Source: an uncultured Roseivirga sp.
Lineage (GTDB): Bacteria; Bacteroidota; Bacteroidia; Cytophagales; Cyclobacteriaceae
Assembly (NCBI GenBank): GCA_947493005.1
Contig: CANLOY010000003.1
Coordinates: 682,001 to 746,000, forward strand
Length of the DNA stretch: 64,000 nucleotides
Direction of reading: 5' to 3'
Shown: positions 17,625 to 26,521 of the stretch, in pieces
Layout: the number at the start of each line of letters is the position of its first letter
Numbering within the stretch: position 1 is the stretch's first letter
The notes under the pieces: model-generated
What the model saw: the letters and a program-made list of their open reading frames with translations, nothing else
Database searches by the model: none
Told to the model about the DNA's origin: nothing
Translations under genes and position numbers: made by a program

Positions 17625-19915
17625 TTAATTGCAATTCTGATTCCTAAAAACCCCCTTATACCTTGGTTAGATGCGTAAACATAAGTTGGGTCAAAACTAA
17701 GTGCGTAAGGATTGTCAGCCGTAGCGACAACCTGACCATTAGTATCAAATACTACATTTTTGTCAAAAGGGTCGTGAGGACGAGCGAGTAAAAAAGGATC
17801 ATTCTTACCCGGTGTCCAGTTTAACAGATTCTTAGCTCCTCCATAAAGCTCAATTTTATCAAACCTATAGGTGAATTGAATATTCTGAATACTCCACCAA
17901 GGAGATTCAGGACTCCTGGGATCCAGGTCGCCCAATAGCGGTAAGCGCATAGGACTATACAGATTACCTGTATAATCAATACTGAAAGGTATTCTTGAAA
18001 AGTCATAGGTTATGGCCCATGTTCCCGAAAATCTTTCGGTTAGGAGCTGACGCTCTTTTATTCCATTTTCTTTGCTAAAAACATCCTGATATGTTACGCC
18101 TGCCAGTATTTTCAAACCATTAGCAAAGTCTATATCAATATTAGCACTTACCCCTCTCGTGACTGCAGAACCATCAATATTATCATATATGATTTTGTTC
18201 GGGTCACTTTCGTAGTCTGGAATGATACGATTGTCAAAGTAGGTATAAAAGGCAGAAGCATCCACCCCGATAAAGATTCCTGAATTAGTATAGATGTTTC
18301 CTAAGTAGTTTAAATTAAAGTTGTAACTGGTTTCTGGATTCAACTCATTGATTACCACCACATCTCTGGCTCCTGTTAAGGCGGCATGATCTTCAGTAAA
18401 CAGGTTTACTACCCTAAAACCAGTACCTGCATTTAATCTTAATGAGCTATTCTCATTAATTGACCATTTATATGCTATTCTTGGTGTAAAGATTCCTCCA
18501 TGCCTGTTGTCGTGATCAAACCTTGCACCCAGTAGTAGTTTATTTTTATCTGCTACAGTAATTTCGTCTTGGATAAAAAAACCAGGTAACCAGACATTAT
18601 CAGGAGAATTAATTGAACTAGTCCCTTCATTATTTTCTGTTGCAGTGGTATTGTCATCGTAGTAAGTGTACCGGAACGCAGCCCCCATTAATATGTCATG
18701 ATTGCCATACTTTTTATCCCATGTTAGCTGGGAAAAGGCTATTTTCTGTCTTGCATCGAACTTTAAATCACCATATCGGCTGTCCTGATCATGATCGTTA
18801 AATGAAAAGGACAGTAAGACATTTTCCCTTACTGGTAATTGATATTGTCCGATCAATTCAAAACGGTTGGTGAAGATACTTTCTCCATAAATCTCGTCTC
18901 CTCCTCGAAATGATTCATCCCAGCGAATATCTCCTCCCCATCTATTTTCATAATAATAACGTCCAGCCAGTGTGAACACTTTATTGTCTTTCCTAGTAAA
19001 GCTCCACTTCTGAAATACTGAAATACGATCTTGCAGTGTAAGATCTGTAAAATTATCATTGTTGTTATCCACCACATTATCATAGAGATAATAATTAACA
19101 CCTGTCAAAACAGTACCCAGATTGCCCGCATTCAACTTGATTCCCAGATCAGCATTATATTCCTGCCAACTTGTTCCAAAAACATCGGCAGAGATAATTG
19201 GGGCATTTTGAGGTTTCTTAGTAATTATATTCACCAAACCTCCCACTGCTTCGCTACCATAAAGAGAGGATGCTGGCCCTTTCACTATCTCAATTCGTTC
19301 TACTAATGAGTTAGGAATTCCTGATAAACCATATACAGTAGACAACCCGCTAACTATAGGCATTCCGTCAATAAGCACAAAGGTGTATGGTCCCTCAAGT
19401 CCATTAATATGAATGTCTCCAGTGTTGCAAATATTACAGTTCAATTGAGGACGAACACCATTCACATTTTGCAGAGCATCGTAAATATTTGGTGTAGGGT
19501 TTTTCTTAAAAAAAGCAGGGCTGTAAACTTCAACCGGAACGGGGCTTTCCATTCTCGAAATCTCCTTCATTGTTCCTGTAACAACCACCTCGTCCAACTG
19601 CCTTGGGTCTTCCTCAAGTACAAAATTTAACTCAAGGCTCTGACCTTCAGAAATGGTGACAGATTGCCTAACTGGAATGAAGCCAATAAAGGAAACCCGA
19701 ACCTCGTATTTACCTGGAGAAATCCCTTCAATAATATAGACTCCGGCATCATTGGTAGTTGCTCCTTTTGTAGTTCCCAACAAACCAACATTTACTAGAG
19801 GAACTGGTTTTCCCTCAGACAAAACCTTTCCAGAAATGACAGCCGTTTGTGCACTTACTTTACAAGTAATTACAACTAGAAACACTAAAATATTTAAAGC
19901 AATATTGGTCTTCAT
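17621..19915 (-). CDS. TonB-dependent receptor with carboxypeptidase-regulatory-like N-terminal domain
   Basis: VISGKVLSEGKPVPLVNVGLLGTTKGATTNDAGVYIIEGI; plug VLIDGMPIVSGLSTVYGLSGIPNSLVERIEIVKGPASSLYGSEAVGGLVNIITK; start at 19915. Confidence 0.93.
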   Translation of the reverse strand: MKTNIALNILVFLVVITCKVSAQTAVISGKVLSEGKPVPLVNVGLLGTTKGATTNDAGVYIIEGISPGKYEVRVSFIGFIPVRQSVTISEGQSLELNFVLEEDPRQLDEVVVTGTMKEISRMESPVPVEVYSPAFFKKNPTPNIYDALQNVNGVRPQLNCNICNTGDIHINGLEGPYTFVLIDGMPIVSGLSTVYGLSGIPNSLVERIEIVKGPASSLYGSEAVGGLVNIITKKPQNAPIISADVFGTSWQEYNADLGIKLNAGNLGTVLTGVNYYLYDNVVDNNNDNFTDLTLQDRISVFQKWSFTRKDNKVFTLAGRYYYENRWGGDIRWDESFRGGDEIYGESIFTNRFELIGQYQLPVRENVLLSFSFNDHDQDSRYGDLKFDARQKIAFSQLTWDKKYGNHDILMGAAFRYTYYDDNTTATENNEGTSSINSPDNVWLPGFFIQDEITVADKNKLLLGARFDHDNRHGGIFTPRIAYKWSINENSSLRLNAGTGFRVVNLFTEDHAALTGARDVVVINELNPETSYNFNLNYLGNIYTNSGIFIGVDASAFYTYFDNRIIPDYESDPNKIIYDNIDGSAVTRGVSANIDIDFANGLKILAGVTYQDVFSKENGIKERQLLTERFSGTWAITYDFSRIPFSIDYTGNLYSPMRLPLLGDLDPRSPESPWWSIQNIQFTYRFDKIELYGGAKNLLNWTPGKNDPFLLARPHDPFDKNVVFDTNGQVVATADNPYALSFDPTYVYASNQGIRGFLGIRIAIN

Positions 19916-20009
19916 TGAGTCATGTTCTGAATTACGTTCCAAACATGGTTTTTCAACTTCTGATGTTCAAAAACCATATTACAAACATAGAATCAGCGTA
20001 CAGTAACTC

Positions 20010-20044
20010 AAAAAATATATTTAATTATTTCTAATATATTTTTT
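20010..20044. promoter_or_regulatory. AT-rich 11-bp inverted repeat upstream of the TonB receptor
   Basis: AAAAAATATAT-N13-ATATATTTTTT, perfect arms. Confidence 0.5.
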
Positions 20045-20057
20045 AGACTAATCTAAA
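20042..20057. promoter_or_regulatory. DtxR/MntR-like palindrome upstream of the TonB receptor
   Basis: TTTAGA-CTAA-TCTAAA, resembles the TTAGG-N-CCTAA half-site logic of DtxR-family boxes. Confidence 0.4.
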
Positions 20058-20097
20058 TCAAAGTACTTATATAATTTTCAATCAGAAACTTATGACG

Positions 20098-20715
20098 TCA
20101 TTCAGAATGTCTTTCTTTAAGTATTGAAACAACATCTTTTAGAGACATATCTTTAGCCTCCAACAGCATTAGATAATGAAAAAGTAAGTCAGCCGCCTCG
20201 TTTTTAAACAGCATATCGTTGTTATCCTTGGCTTCAATAACTAATTCTACTGCCTCTTCCCCTACCTTTTGAGCCACCTTATTAATGCCTTTTGCAAAGA
20301 GGCTTGCTGTATAGGATTCGTCTGGTGACATGGCTCTTCTTTGCTTGATTACCTCACCCAAATAATTAAGGAATGAAGCATCATTTATATTATCCTCAGA
20401 CCAACAAGTATCATCCCCCGTATGACAGGTAGCTCCTACTGGATTCACCTTTATCAACAAGGCATCACTATCACAATCCACATAACAATTCACTAGCCTC
20501 AGGAAGTTACCTGAAGTCTCTCCTTTAACCCAGATTCGTTGTTTGGAACGACTAAAAAAAGTTATATTTTTAGTTTCTAAGGTTTGCTCTAATGCTACCT
20601 CGTTCATATAGCCCAGCATTAGTACTTTGCTGGTTTGCACATCTTGAATTACAGCCGGCACAAGACCACCTTCTTTTTCAAAATTTACCTGCTCTTTTCT
20701 TTCTAGAATTCTCAT
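20098..20715 (-). CDS. hisIE: Bifunctional phosphoribosyl-AMP cyclohydrolase / phosphoribosyl-ATP diphosphatase
   Basis: [53 protein letters not shown]-terminal His[17 protein letters not shown]. Confidence 0.97.
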
Positions 20716-21473
20716 TGTGTTATCCTTACCGGAATGTCTTTTGTTGCTAAATATGTTTTGAGTTCAGCGAGTTGAATTTCTTTAAAATGAAAGATACTTG
20801 CTGCCAGAGCTGCATCTGCTTTTCCCTTTATAAAAGTATCTACGAAATGATCCATGTTACCAGCTCCTCCTGAGGCAATTACCGGAACCGTAAGCATTTG
20901 TGAAACTTCAGCTATGAGCTCATCTGCAAAACCACTCTTTGTTCCATCGTGATCCATAGAGGTCAATAGTATTTCTCCTGCATCACGTTCCGCGATCTCT
21001 TTAGCCCATTCCAGAGTTTTGAGAGCCGTAGGAGTTCTTCCTCCCCTTACATGCACAATATGCTCTCCACCCACATTACGAGTATCAATGGCCACAACTA
21101 CACATTGACTTCCAAACTCAAGCGCCAGTTCGTTGATTAAATCAGGATTTTTCACAGCAGAGGAGTTAATGGAGATTTTGTCTGCTCCTGCATTTAGCAG
21201 CGCAGAAACGTCCTCTTTAGAACTTATCCCACCCCCAACTGTAAATGGAATATTGATTTTCTGTGCAATCTTTCGCACCAACTCCACTAATGTCTTTCTC
21301 TTCTCCACAGTGGCAGTTATATCCAGAAAAACTAACTCATCAGCCCCTTCTTCGGTATACCTTGCAGCCAACTCTACCGGATCACCAGCATCTCTCAGCC
21401 CCACAAAGTTGACCCCCTTGACTGTTCTACCATCTTTTACATCCAGACAGGGGATTATTCTTTTCGTTAACAT
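20712..21473 (-). CDS. hisF: Imidazole glycerol phosphate synthase subunit HisF
   Basis: [36 protein letters not shown]. Confidence 0.98.
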
Positions 21474-21491
21474 TGTTCTCTAGATTTCTTT

Positions 21492-22223
21492 TTAAAAAGC
21501 TGCCAGTTCTTCAAGGCTAATTCTTCCTTCGTAATAGGCTTTACCCACAATAGCACCATATACCCCTATTCTCTTTAACTCTTCTAGGTCTTCCAGAGAA
21601 GAAACACCTCCACTGGCAATGAGATTGAGTTGAGGAAACTTAATGATTAATTCTTCATACAAGGCAATAGAAGGTCCTTGTAGTAAACCATCCTTACTTA
21701 CATCTGTACATATGCAATGGCTAATACCCAGGTCTATATATGAACCAACAAATTCGAACAAGTCGATCCCCGAATCTTCCTGCCAGCCATTTATAGCTAT
21801 CTTTCTATTGTGTACATCGGCACCAAGAACAATTTTATCGGCACCGTATTTTTCAATCCATTCAACAACCAATGGCCTATTCTTAACAGCAATACTTCCT
21901 GCTGTTATCTGATGTGCACCGGATGAAAAAGCCAGTTCAATTGACTCATTAGATTTAATACCTCCACCAAAATCAACCAGTAATTCAGTCTCAGTCGTTA
22001 TTTCTTCTAGCCTATTAAGATTTACAGGTTTTGAAGCTTTTGCACCTTCCAAGTCAACCACATGCAGCCTTTTAATACCAGCCTTTTCAAACATTTTTGC
22101 AACAGCCACCGGGCTTTCAGCATACTCTGTTTTTTGTGAATAGTCACCTTGGGTCAGTCTCACGGCCTTCCCTTCTATTATATCTATTGCAGGAATTATT
22201 ACCATTTCTTTCTTTGACGTCAT
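21492..22223 (-). CDS. hisA: ProFAR isomerase HisA
   Basis: IIPAIDIIEGKAVRLTQGDYSQKTEY. Confidence 0.97.
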   Translation of the reverse strand: MTSKKEMVIIPAIDIIEGKAVRLTQGDYSQKTEYAESPVAVAKMFEKAGIKRLHVVDLEGAKASKPVNLNRLEEITTETELLVDFGGGIKSNESIELAFSSGAHQITAGSIAVKNRPLVVEWIEKYGADKIVLGADVHNRKIAINGWQEDSGIDLFEFVGSYIDLGISHCICTDVSKDGLLQGPSIALYEELIIKFPQLNLIASGGVSSLEDLEELKRIGVYGAIVGKAYYEGRISLEELAAF

Positions 22224-22315
22224 TCCGAGGGTTTACCCGAAGGAATCCCCAGATTTTATTGAGATTGCCACGTCAGTAACCACAATATCTTGTGGCCACT
22301 TCCTCACAATGACGT
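22216..22315. repeat. REP/MITE-like element in the hisH-hisA spacer
   Basis: ACGTCATT (22217-22224) and AATGACGT (22308-22315) terminal inverted repeats; internal ATTCC..GGG-TTTA-CCC..GGAAT hairpin; shares CCTCACAATGACGT with 39013-39026. Confidence 0.7.
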
Positions 22316-22320
22316 TTTTT

Positions 22321-22902
22321 TTAAAGTTTTAAAAAGTTCTCTAGTATCTTTTCGCCCACCTTACCACTTTTCTCAGGGTGCGCTTGCAATGCATAGAAAT
22401 TATCCTTCTGGAGCGCTGCCGAAAACGGATTCACATAGTCAGTTGTAGCCACTGTCTTATTGCTCAACTCTGCATAATAGCTATGCACGAAATACACATA
22501 AGGATTTTCAGGCAAGCCCTCAAACAAAGGTGAATTCATATTTGTCAATGTATTCCATCCCATCTGAGGAACTTTGAGTTTTGGCTCGAATTTTCTCACC
22601 TGAATATCAAAAACCCCTAAACACTCCGTATTGTTTTCTTCCGAATGCCTGCACATTAACTGAAGCCCCAGACAAACCCCGAAAACCGGTTGTTTCAAGC
22701 CTTGGATCACCTTATCTAACTTTCTTTCTTTCAGAAAGCTCATAGCGGTACTTGCTTCACCTACCCCTGGGAAAATCACTTTATCAGAGGAAGCAATTAC
22801 TTCCGGGTCACTTGAAATAACAGGCTGGACCCCCAACCTGTTCAAAGCATCAGTTACAGATTGTACGTTACCTGCATTGTAGTTAACAATGACTACACTC
22901 AT
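22321..22902 (-). CDS. hisH: Imidazole glycerol phosphate synthase subunit HisH
   Basis: IVNYNAGNVQSVTDALNRLG; GVCLGLQLM nucleophile elbow. Confidence 0.97.
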   Translation of the reverse strand: MSVVIVNYNAGNVQSVTDALNRLGVQPVISSDPEVIASSDKVIFPGVGEASTAMSFLKERKLDKVIQGLKQPVFGVCLGLQLMCRHSEENNTECLGVFDIQVRKFEPKLKVPQMGWNTLTNMNSPLFEGLPENPYVYFVHSYYAELSNKTVATTDYVNPFSAALQKDNFYALQAHPEKSGKVGEKILENFLKL

Positions 22903-22930
22903 ATCTGGATATTTGAAGTTTGAAGAGGGC

Positions 22931-23665
22931 TTAAACCGTAGCTTCTTTGGCCTTAAGTTTTGCTTCTATTTTCGATTTAATCTCAGGCAAAGAATCGTAC
23001 AATTGCTCATAAGAATCAATTATGAAGTAGTTTTCTTGCATAGCATCCTTTCTGTAAGGAGTATCCAAGATTTTATCTACGTCATATTCAAAGTGATTTG
23101 GTTCATCAGACAATGAAAACCTCGTTTCTCCTGATGAAGAGAGTATGCCAGCGCCATAGATTTTCAATTCCCCATTTTCTCTGATAAGACCAAATTCGAT
23201 GGTGAACCAGTAGATTCTGGATAGCAAATGAATTGCCCATTCATCCTCAATCCACTCTTGTCCAAATTTGCTAATAGCCTGCAAGAAATCAACAAAAGCC
23301 TGATTGGCCAGCAATGGAATATGAGCGAAAACATCATGGAACATGTCCGGCTCTTCCAGGTAATCCAACTCACTCATTTTCCTAACCCAGGTAGTGGCGG
23401 GAAACTTCTTATTAGCCATTAGGTCAAAAAACAAGCTATCCTCAACTATCCCTGGAACTGCATAGATTTCCCAACCCGTAATTTCTCTCAGAATCTTGTT
23501 AGTCTCTTCGAAATTGGGAATTCCTTCACCGGAAAACTTTACTTTCTCTAAGCCAATCAAAAATTCTCGGGTTGCCGCTTTCGGTAACTCTGGAAACTGT
23601 CTGTCAAAAAGAATCTTCCAAACCTTTTGATCTTCTGCTGTGTAATTTTCGTAAACCTGTTTCAT
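22931..23665 (-). CDS. phhA: Phenylalanine 4-monooxygenase
   Basis: PDMFHDVFAHIPLL Fe-ligand HxxxxH, WFTIEFGLI; ATG at 23665 preferred over the TTG at 23704, which sits on the terminator U-tract. Confidence 0.95.
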   Translation of the reverse strand: MKQVYENYTAEDQKVWKILFDRQFPELPKAATREFLIGLEKVKFSGEGIPNFEETNKILREITGWEIYAVPGIVEDSLFFDLMANKKFPATTWVRKMSELDYLEEPDMFHDVFAHIPLLANQAFVDFLQAISKFGQEWIEDEWAIHLLSRIYWFTIEFGLIRENGELKIYGAGILSSSGETRFSLSDEPNHFEYDVDKILDTPYRKDAMQENYFIIDSYEQLYDSLPEIKSKIEAKLKAKEATV

Positions 23666-23704
23666 TTTATGGTAGTTTATCCGGTGCACATCAAAAGCCG
23701 GCAA

Positions 23705-23738
23705 TAAAAAAGCCCGGCTCTTTCGGAACCGGGCTTTA
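23705..23738 (-). terminator. Intrinsic terminator/attenuator in the phhA-his leader
   Basis: Minus strand: AAAGCCCGG..TTCCGAAAGAG..CCGGGCTTT then TTTTATT, about 40 nt upstream of the phhA ATG. Confidence 0.85.
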
Positions 23739-23765
23739 TATGTTTGTTTTATATATTCTATTCAA

Positions 23766-23834
23766 TTACATACAACTACCGTTCCGCAAGTCTGCGTAAT
23801 AATAATGGTAGTGATATACTTTGTTTCTAATCAT
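23766..23834 (-). CDS. Putative attenuator leader peptide, MIRNKVYHYHYYYADLRNGSCM
   Basis: ATG ATT AGA AAC AAA GTA TAT CAC TAC CAT TAT TAT TAC GCA GAC TTG CGG AAC GGT AGT TGT ATG TAA; 5 Tyr and 2 His codons in 7; terminator downstream. Confidence 0.8.
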   Translation of the reverse strand: MIRNKVYHYHYYYADLRNGSCM

Positions 23835-23839
23835 TGGGT

Positions 23840-23869
23840 CAAAGGTAATATGCATTTCAGTATATACAA
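23840..23869 (-). promoter_or_regulatory. Bacteroidota sigma-ABfr-type promoter TTG-N19-TACCTTTG
   Basis: -33 TTG at 23867-23869, 19-nt spacer, -7 TACCTTTG at 23840-23847; leader ATG 5 nt downstream. Confidence 0.7.
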
Positions 23870-23914
23870 GCACCACCTATCCTTTTTTGAAAAGTTTTTG
23901 TAAGCTCGCTTACC

Positions 23915-26521
23915 TTACTCATTTCGTAAAACTCTTGAAGGGTTAACAGTAGCCGTCCTGATTGCCTGATATGCGATTGTAATGGCCGTAATCAACACAG
24001 CAAAGAGTATTGCTATAATGGCCACATCCGCTCCTAAATCGATTTGATAAGCATAGTTGGTCAACCAATCATTCATAAAATGATATGCCAATGGCAATGC
24101 TAAAACCAGAGCAATAAAAATGAGTTTCATAAAATCGGCAGACAATAGCACTACTATACGGATTACTGAAGCACCTAACACCTTTCTAATCCCCATTTCC
24201 TTAGCTCTGTTTACAGCCATAAAGGAAATAAGACCAAATATTCCCAGACATGCTATAGCAATTGCTATAGAAGTAAATGTGAAAAACACCATACCTAACC
24301 TGTTTTCAAAAGTATACATTTGATCATAGTGATCATCTAAAAACGTATACTCAAAGGGAAGTTCTGGGGCTAACTCTCCAATTTGCGTCTCTATAAAACT
24401 TAAGGTTTCTGCCACATTCTCTTCCTTGACCTTTGCAAAAACCAGGTTATTTCTTCGAGGATTGGCCATTAAAACAAAAGGCTCAATTGGCTGATGAAGG
24501 GATTTAAAATGAAAATCCTTTACAACCCCTTGAACAGGCCCTTCATAACCACTGATAATTACGCTCTTACCTATTGCCTCATCAGGCGTCCATCCCATCA
24601 ATCTGGCTGTAGTTTCATTAATGATGTAAGTAGGGTTTTTTCCTGCAGAATCCAGTTCAGCATAAGGAACAGCTCTTTCTTTTAAACTCAGCCCTTCAAC
24701 CATTTCCATCCCTACCAAATCCATAAACTCTTTTTCAGCAGACATAAAGTAGATCAACTCCCAATCGTTTTCCGTTTCTCCCGTCTGAATTCCATGCGCT
24801 GAACCAATGTTTGTCGGAATATGAGAAGCCTTACTCACGGACTCTATGTTAGGATTAGCAAGCAGTTTATTCTGAAAGACGCTATAGTTTTTGTTCAAAT
24901 CGGAGTCCGAATAGAAATAAACCACCTGCTCTCTATTCATCCCCGTATCCTTTGAATTTATATAGTTCAACTGTTTTTTCACCACTAACGTTGCCACTAC
25001 CATGAACACGGAAATAACAAACTGGACCACCACGAGTAACTTCCTTAGTTTACTCCCGGTTCCTGATCTTGAAAACTTACCCTTGAGTACCACTACTGGC
25101 TTGAACATAGACAACATAATTGCCGGGTAAAACCCTGCCAAAAGAGATATAAACACAACCAATCCAAATAGAGAACCTATAAAAGAAGGCATTAGCATTT
25201 GACTTTGTGAAATCGACTCTCCAGTTAGCTCATTAAAATTTGGCAACAAGGCATAGGCTAAAGCAAATGAACCAGCCGCAGCAGCAAAGGCAAACAAAAA
25301 GGACTCACTGAGAAACTGCCATATTAACTGGGTACGTAAGGCACCAACTACCTTTCTTATTCCCACTTCCTTAGCCCTATCCAGTGATTTAGATGTTGCC
25401 AGATTAACATAATTAATACAAGCAATTAACAATATGAGTAGAGCAACTCCGGAAAAGGTATAGACATACTTTATGTTTCCCACCTTCTCCATTTCATATT
25501 CGAGATTAAATCTTTTCTGGAGGTAAATATCATTGAGCGACTCCATCATGTAGTCCAATGGCTCATCATCTCCCCATTCAACCTGAGAAGCCTTAAGTTT
25601 CTCGGCCATTTTACCTTCAAATGAAACCGGATCAACATTCTTCTTTAACCCTATGAAAGTGTGATAATTCCAGTTACTCCATGTCTCTCTTTTTGTCCAG
25701 CCTAAGTCAGAAAAAATAGCAACAAAATCGAACTGAAAGTAAGAGTTTGCTGGTACATTGGACATCACCCCCGTAACTTTATGTAGCTTCCCCTCCAAAT
25801 CGAAAGTCTTACCTAAAACATCGGTTGAACCAAAATACCTCAATGCTGCCTTTTGACTAAGCACGATACTCTTCGTTTCAGTTAGTGCACTACTTGCATC
25901 TCCTTGTATTAATGGGAAGGTGAAAAGACTAAAGAACCCTGGATCCACATAATAAACCCTCTCGGTATAAGACTCTCCATCAATTGTAATTACCTGACCA
26001 GATTGATCGTAGACCCTTATACTGTGTTCTACCTCATCTACAAAACTCCGTTCTATTTCTGGAGCAATAATATTCGGAGTAATAGCATCCCCCCCTTCAG
26101 TAATTCTGAAAATCCTGTCTTTCTTAACATGAAACTGATCGAAGCTCAACTGATGTTGCACATAGAGCATAATCAGAATAAAACTTGTTATCCCAACTGT
26201 TAACCCGGAGATATTGATAAATGAGTAAACCTTGTGCCTTTGAATATTTCTAAAAGCAACTTTAAAATTGTTTTTGACCATTGTTAAATTGTTTTGAGTA
26301 TATCTGTTTGAATTTCTTCTTTTAAGTGTGTGCCACTTGATGAATTTTAAGACATTGAGCCAATACTTTCTTTTTGCCTTACTGGCACCTAATTCCTCAT
26401 AGTGATCCCAGAACCTCTCTTCCATATCTCCCGCTATCTCTTCTTTCAAAGGATCATCGCAATACCAATAGAAAAAGCGCTCGGCCAACCTGGGAGGATA
26501 TCGTTTTTCGGTCTGGTTCAA
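23915..26521 (-). CDS. ABC transporter permease (FtsX/MacB-like) with N-terminal permease-prefix domain
   Basis: N-terminal PPRLAERFFYWYCDDPLKEEIAGDMEERF; MacB periplasmic core and two FtsX regions (RAKEVGIRKVVGAL, RAKEMGIRKVLGAS). Confidence 0.92.
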   Translation of the reverse strand: MNQTEKRYPPRLAERFFYWYCDDPLKEEIAGDMEERFWDHYEELGASKAKRKYWLNVLKFIKWHTLKRRNSNRYTQNNLTMVKNNFKVAFRNIQRHKVYSFINISGLTVGITSFILIMLYVQHQLSFDQFHVKKDRIFRITEGGDAITPNIIAPEIERSFVDEVEHSIRVYDQSGQVITIDGESYTERVYYVDPGFFSLFTFPLIQGDASSALTETKSIVLSQKAALRYFGSTDVLGKTFDLEGKLHKVTGVMSNVPANSYFQFDFVAIFSDLGWTKRETWSNWNYHTFIGLKKNVDPVSFEGKMAEKLKASQVEWGDDEPLDYMMESLNDIYLQKRFNLEYEMEKVGNIKYVYTFSGVALLILLIACINYVNLATSKSLDRAKEVGIRKVVGALRTQLIWQFLSESFLFAFAAAAGSFALAYALLPNFNELTGESISQSQMLMPSFIGSLFGLVVFISLLAGFYPAIMLSMFKPVVVLKGKFSRSGTGSKLRKLLVVVQFVISVFMVVATLVVKKQLNYINSKDTGMNREQVVYFYSDSDLNKNYSVFQNKLLANPNIESVSKASHIPTNIGSAHGIQTGETENDWELIYFMSAEKEFMDLVGMEMVEGLSLKERAVPYAELDSAGKNPTYIINETTARLMGWTPDEAIGKSVIISGYEGPVQGVVKDFHFKSLHQPIEPFVLMANPRRNNLVFAKVKEENVAETLSFIETQIGELAPELPFEYTFLDDHYDQMYTFENRLGMVFFTFTSIAIAIACLGIFGLISFMAVNRAKEMGIRKVLGASVIRIVVLLSADFMKLIFIALVLALPLAYHFMNDWLTNYAYQIDLGADVAIIAILFAVLITAITIAYQAIRTATVNPSRVLRNE

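Follow-up and report, generated by a model that had tools for sequence, protein, structure and literature searches.

How a single upstream region could serve two unrelated amino acid pathways is the question raised by an operon of an uncultured Roseivirga sp. (Cytophagales), in which phhA, encoding an enzyme that makes Tyr from Phe, precedes hisH, hisA, hisF and hisIE. The DNA analysed is a stretch of 64,000 nt; by "window" we mean this whole stretch and not the element under study. The element lies at 23869-23706 on the minus strand of the window and comprises a promoter, a leader of 22 codons rich in Tyr and His, an antiterminator and an intrinsic terminator ahead of the five genes (Table 1).

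Table 1. Coordinates of the regulatory element and of the operon that it precedes (positions in the window).
Feature	Positions	Strand	Remarks
Bacteroidota-type promoter	23840..23869	-	TTG 23869-23867, 19 nt, -7 element TACCTTTG 23847-23840
Leader peptide ORF, 22 codons, MIRNKVYHYHYYYADLRNGSCM	23766..23834	-	ATG 23834, stop TAA 23768-23766; kept in relatives
Regulatory run TAT CAC TAC CAT TAT TAT TAC (5 Tyr, 2 His; codons 7-13)	23796..23816	-	once in the window
Segment 1, ACTACC	23807..23812	-	pairs with GGTAGT 23780-23775
Segment 2, CGGAACGGTAGT	23775..23786	-	CGGAAC 23786-23781 is the antiterminator 5' arm
Intrinsic terminator AAAGCCCGGTTCCGAAAGAGCCGGGCTTT (segments 3 and 4), 12 bp stem	23709..23737	-	U-tract to 23706
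GTTCCG, antiterminator 3' arm within the terminator	23729-23724	-	pairs with CGGAAC
phhA, phenylalanine 4-monooxygenase (Phe to Tyr)	22931..23665	-	NCBIfam NF008877 280 bits, TIGR01267 269 bits; relatives support ATG 23665
hisH	22321..22902	-	TIGR01855; gap to phhA 28 nt
hisA	21492..22223	-	TIGR00007
hisF	20712..21473	-	TIGR00735
hisIE	20098..20715	-	NF002747

Every piece that the initial annotation had described at this site was present, namely the TTG-N19-TACCTTTG promoter, the leader ORF, the seven-codon run, CGGAAC and the terminator with its U-tract. The same annotation had placed the terminator just before the phhA start; it does exist, but ends about 40 nt ahead of that ATG. A second alternative helix, between ACTACC and GGTAGT, was absent from the earlier description, as was the position of the leader ATG at the expected site of transcription initiation. 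The leader ATG lies 5 nt past the -7 element, and AAAGCCCGGTTCCGAAAGAGCCGGGCTTT was the sole intrinsic terminator detected across 19900-23960. The Tyr/His run occurred only once when all six frames of the 64 kb were searched and in none of 30 first-order Markov resamples, and is therefore not a product of chance.

The identities proposed for the five genes were borne out, all of them scoring above the curated NCBIfam equivalog cut-offs. The closest relatives of the PhhA protein belong to Roseivirga species (84-91% identity), and hisGDCB, the remainder of the his pathway, is located on another contig of the same genome. Prephenate dehydrogenase (TyrA; PF02153) was not found in this genome, which is 98.7% complete, and was detected in 14 of 14 control genomes. 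PhhA is thus probably the only route to Tyr that the genome encodes, which would make a Tyr sensor ahead of phhA sensible. The gene on the 5' side of the leader (23915-26521, minus strand) encodes an ADOP/FtsX-like permease that carries a permease-prefix domain. It seems unrelated to the operon, and a small ORF for a PadR-like regulator lies ahead of it.

A scan with the sigma-70 consensus gave no promoter at the element, as expected, since this consensus differs from the Bacteroidota -7 element. Among 39 related leaders, 35 were preceded by TA..TTTG (at least 5 of the 6 fixed letters), and in 31 of these 35 the distance to the leader ATG was 4-8 nt, with a mode of 5. In Flavobacterium psychrophilum, the -7 box spans positions -12 to -5 (PMC9723704). 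Based on this position and on the spacing between box and ATG, the leader mRNA is predicted to start at or within a few nucleotides of the ATG, with a 5' UTR of about 0-2 nt, and hence to be leaderless. Such a start would favour transcription that is coupled to translation of the leader. Few mRNAs of the phylum are leaderless; their share is 5.5% in F. psychrophilum (PMC9723704), and about 3.7% of the 5' UTRs of Bacteroides thetaiotaomicron are shorter than 10 nt (PMC7366714).

To follow the element across relatives, 80 related phhA loci were compared, together with additional loci from whole genomes. In Roseivirga the same layout was found at every locus with upstream sequence, with runs such as YHYHYYY, YHYHYYH, YYYHYYH and HHYYYYY. 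The same anatomy with different runs precedes phhA in Marivirga, Fulvivirga, Cesiribacter, Nafulsella, Echinicola and Algoriphagus, and Tyr-rich phhA leaders were also found in other orders of the class. The composition of the run in Tyr and His is kept among relatives while their order varies. Depending on the species, the CGGAAC-type segment 2 is translated in any of the three frames, so that it is conserved as RNA and not as peptide. The conservation check suggested in the initial annotation thus came out in its favour: across genera, relatives keep the Tyr/His run and the terminator as well as pairing of the CGGAAC/GTTCCG type, with compensating changes. No leader was obtained at 22 of 81 distinct hisH-linked phhA loci (for example L077, L121 and L128), and the terminator is absent from all 22. 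Upstream sequence is available for 21 of them, and there leader and terminator are jointly missing.

Since segment 2 shifts from genus to genus (CGGAAC, GGAATCGG, GGCTTCG) and alignment columns do not correspond, counting of aligned pairs was replaced by an alignment-free swap test. For 42 leaders from many genera, the duplex formed by a leader's own segments was compared with duplexes after segments had been exchanged between leaders; the presence of relatives among the swapped leaders makes this test more stringent. The 2:3 duplex, which corresponds to the antiterminator, was more stable with its own segments (-14.1 versus -10.7 kcal/mol when swapped), a difference reached in 0 of 20000 permutations. 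This bears out the proposed CGGAAC/GTTCCG antiterminator. The 1:2 duplex behaved similarly (-18.5 versus -14.9 kcal/mol; 0 of 20000 permutations), and the control pairing 1:3 gave no signal over the same 42 leaders (p=0.95). In the terminator stem, four pairs showed double changes; RNAalifold detected only the terminator.

We also modelled ribosome stalling before segment 4 is made, with an assumed footprint of 10 nt 3' of the A-site codon and leaving out RNA that emerges behind the ribosome. For the window leader, the modelled probability of the antiterminator was 0.82-0.99 with the A-site at codons 7-13, which form the run, fell to 0.16 at codon 14 and was 0 at the stop codon. Both His codons sit where modelled stalling frees segment 2. 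Averaged over the 42 leaders, this probability stayed at about 0.9-0.95 as long as the ribosome was in the run and dropped to about 0.3-0.4 within the five codons past it, and the drop held for footprints of 8, 10 and 12 nt. The 1:2 helix of the window leader is weak at equilibrium (P 0.03), though this pairing co-varies across genera, and if the leader were not translated, the antiterminator would be favoured in the model. Shut-off is therefore predicted to need ribosomes to translate the leader to its end and mask segment 2. Taken with the conservation described above, these data make it almost certain that the element is a real, conserved ribosome-mediated attenuator.

We then asked whether the codons of the leader follow the content of the operon. 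Excluded were low-scoring Y/H windows regarded as background (L073, L118, L149, L150, L152, L157, L162, L163 and L169), one locus at which the scan chose the wrong ORF (L079) and one whose contig ends after phhA (L053). Among the 81 distinct loci with a leader, at least two His codons within a 13-residue window were found in 56 of the 58 leaders in which phhA is linked to hisH, compared to 1 of the 23 unlinked leaders, and the mean His count was 2.8 and 0.3, respectively. Fisher's test gave p=1.7e-16, a value that is overstated as the independent origins are few. On the PhhA tree, linkage changed at least six times, and three independent pairs lie on well supported branches (mean 2.1 agreeing, 0.1 disagreeing); with only three independent contrasts, a phylogenetic sign test cannot reach significance by itself. 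The sharpest case is Marivirga, in which linked leaders read HYYYYYH or HYYYYH and unlinked ones TYYYYYQ or TYYYYYL; a leader 5' of hisH was sought in Marivirga with unlinked phhA and was not found. In Algoriphagus the run TYVHHSYHLL even holds more His than Tyr. A Fulvivirga-like genome carries phhA with an aminotransferase and a prephenate dehydrogenase gene behind it (both named from sequence), and its leader has seven Tyr codons and no His. Overall, phhA alone or with Tyr genes goes with Tyr-only leaders and phhA with his genes goes with Tyr and His. Exceptions are L159, a phhA-hisH locus with Tyr only, L144, which has His and no hisH nearby, and the unlinked L027 and L098 with one His each.

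In the Roseivirga genome itself, the hisGDCB leader MSMNLHIAIRAAHAHHFHHLV has six His codons and no Tyr. We built a covariance model on 26 phhA leaders and ran it over 195 genomes; the downstream genes of its matches were named from sequence and not by family search. In the Roseivirga genome, the matches include a Phe/Tyr leader MKRIAAVFFYFFYFIGLIRVSRCL with a terminator directly 5' of the DAHP synthase gene (L288; G000:C7:185475-185597, minus strand). Genomes of the same family have an FTFFYFYF leader 5' of DAHP synthase, and a YFYFYY leader precedes a chorismate mutase gene. Leaders with HKHHH, HIHHHH and HHQSHHSH precede hisH, and those of hisH operons without phhA (L268, L273 and L278) are rich in His with no Tyr. 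In these sister leaders, too, the codon list follows the products of the operon behind it.

Other leaders are of interest in themselves. His-rich leaders precede hisG at L112 (about 6594-6442, minus strand) and at L175-L194. In much of the family the hisG leaders end in HHSS-stop-GGAGGA, and behind this end a stretch ATATCGCCC...GGCTGTT is conserved; no intrinsic terminator was seen in this stretch past the hisG leaders, and it may be a different switch. The His-rich leaders L268, L273, L278 and L245 are situated directly or a few hundred nucleotides 5' of hisH, which at L245 is not behind phhA, and likewise at the other three as judged by their matches. Upstream of pheA, where a YFWFYYYYF run occurs, the leaders MKRFNAYFWFYYYYFKALPGFERVAVCC and a close variant (L279, L294) have Tyr, Phe and Trp codons, possibly a three-input aromatic leader, in genomes in which PhhA was not found. 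A Tyr-only leader, MNWNHQAYYYYYYSRGPVSER (YYYYYY), with a terminator precedes an aminotransferase gene away from phhA (L283). Finally, an Ile-rich leader MQPITYTILISVIIITALF with a terminator lies 5' of an ilvD-like (dihydroxy-acid dehydratase) gene (L275) and probably belongs to this class as a branched-chain attenuator.

The best explanation of these observations, to which we give a probability of roughly 0.78, is a classical ribosome-mediated transcription attenuator that acts as an OR gate for shortage of Tyr or His. Transcription would begin at or next to the leader ATG, and the leader would be read from the predicted leaderless mRNA. With ample charged Tyr- and His-tRNA, the ribosome would pass the run, reach the stop codon and cover segment 2, upon which the terminator (3:4) would form ahead of phhA. 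When either charged Tyr-tRNA or charged His-tRNA is scarce, the ribosome would stall in the run and leave segment 2 free to pair with segment 3; this would block the terminator, and phhA-hisHAF-hisIE would be transcribed. The gate would thereby read both end products of the operon. Within this mechanism, we infer the coupling of translation to transcription and the induction by each of the two amino acids.

It is quite likely that the element answers to both amino acids. The attenuator might instead answer to Tyr only, with the His codons being incidental or too few for effective stalling. In the window the run has five Tyr to two His, nearly all phhA leaders in Cytophagales have Tyr alone when no his genes are linked, and Tyr-rich phhA leaders occur in other orders of the class. 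There is also a precedent for a silent regulatory codon, as the AroR leader of Corynebacterium glutamicum, which contains Phe-Tyr-Phe, answers to Phe only and Tyr availability has no effect (PMC11802643); a codon in a leader need therefore not mean a response. However, two to four His codons recur where his genes are linked and are usually missing otherwise, the Algoriphagus run has His in excess of Tyr, and stalling at either His codon of the window leader frees segment 2 in the model. We consider a Tyr-only attenuator unlikely on these grounds.

It is far less probable that the leader is no regulatory sensor of tRNA charging at all. A constitutive terminator next to a short ORF without regulatory function, or a small functional peptide, would have as its parallel the peTrpL leader peptide, which is reported to act in trans (PMC7298713). 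Compensating changes in mutually exclusive helices, a stall geometry that fits the point where the run ends and the joint absence of leader and terminator at the 22 hisH-linked loci (one without upstream sequence) speak against it and leave it very improbable. Arrest by the nascent peptide or sensing of a small molecule is known from the Erm leader peptides. TnaC is described as working in this way in PMC8429421. Here, however, Tyr and His change places between leaders (YHYHYYY, YYYHYYH, HHYYYYY, HYYYYYH) whereas the composition is conserved, the residues downstream are read in different frames, and the sister leaders match the amino acids of their own operons. Given the variable order and the three frames of segment 2, the arrest-peptide reading was rejected, and sensing of this kind is likewise very improbable.

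The two-input attenuator was also compared to known systems. No Rfam family matched the element at its gathering score, and readings as an Rfam riboswitch were rejected for this reason; a T-box was likewise rejected, as none was among the matches, either at the gathering score or at E values of up to 5. Below threshold, Thr_leader (E=9e-5), His_leader (E=8e-4) and Trp_leader (0.03) matched, His_leader (RF00514) with a full-length alignment of 33.5 bits, under its gathering score of 49 bits. Like the classical his operon attenuator (HisL; RF00514), the element has a short leader rich in product codons, mutually exclusive antiterminator and terminator and a U-tract before the first gene. It differs from HisL in its mixed Tyr and His codons, in phhA combined with half of the his pathway and in its predicted leaderless start. 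With E. coli pheA/pheST and C. glutamicum AroR (aroF) it shares aromatic amino acid codons in the leader peptide, but there Phe is the signal and there is no His input. The multivalent ilv and thr leaders of E. coli read more than one amino acid in one leader, though of connected pathways; the Tyr and His pathways, on the other hand, are unrelated and joined only by the operon.

Within the phylum, leader-peptide attenuation has been inferred in F. psychrophilum (PMC9723704) and a putative attenuator precedes the pheA operon of B. thetaiotaomicron (PMC1173090), both at amino acid biosynthesis operons; searches of the main texts of these two papers gave no Tyr/His leader or input from two pathways. 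A comparative study of 2005 placed Tyr under T-box control and listed His, Thr and Phe with the peptide attenuators (PMC1262725). Among open PMC papers we found no leader peptide that is Tyr-responsive, combines Tyr and His or serves two unrelated pathways, although priority is not certain. The element is probably a true two-input OR gate for unrelated pathways, within a Cytophagales-wide set of attenuators whose codon lists are rewritten as operons join and split, and would be the first leader-peptide attenuator shown to be Tyr-responsive, as far as open PMC papers show. Judged from sequence, the lists in this set would be Tyr for phhA, His for hisG and hisH, Phe and Tyr for DAHP synthase, and Tyr, Phe and Trp for pheA.

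The fusion of operons appears to evolve together with the codon list of a single sensor, and natural controls exist both within Marivirga and within the Roseivirga genome itself, where the hisGDCB leader has His only and the DAHP synthase leader Phe/Tyr. This provides a testable case of gain and loss of a regulatory input, in a phylum in which RNA regulation is little studied. It would also represent an unusual two-input form of a classic bacterial control, and the leader codons suggest that operon products could be predicted from sequence alone in Cytophagales.
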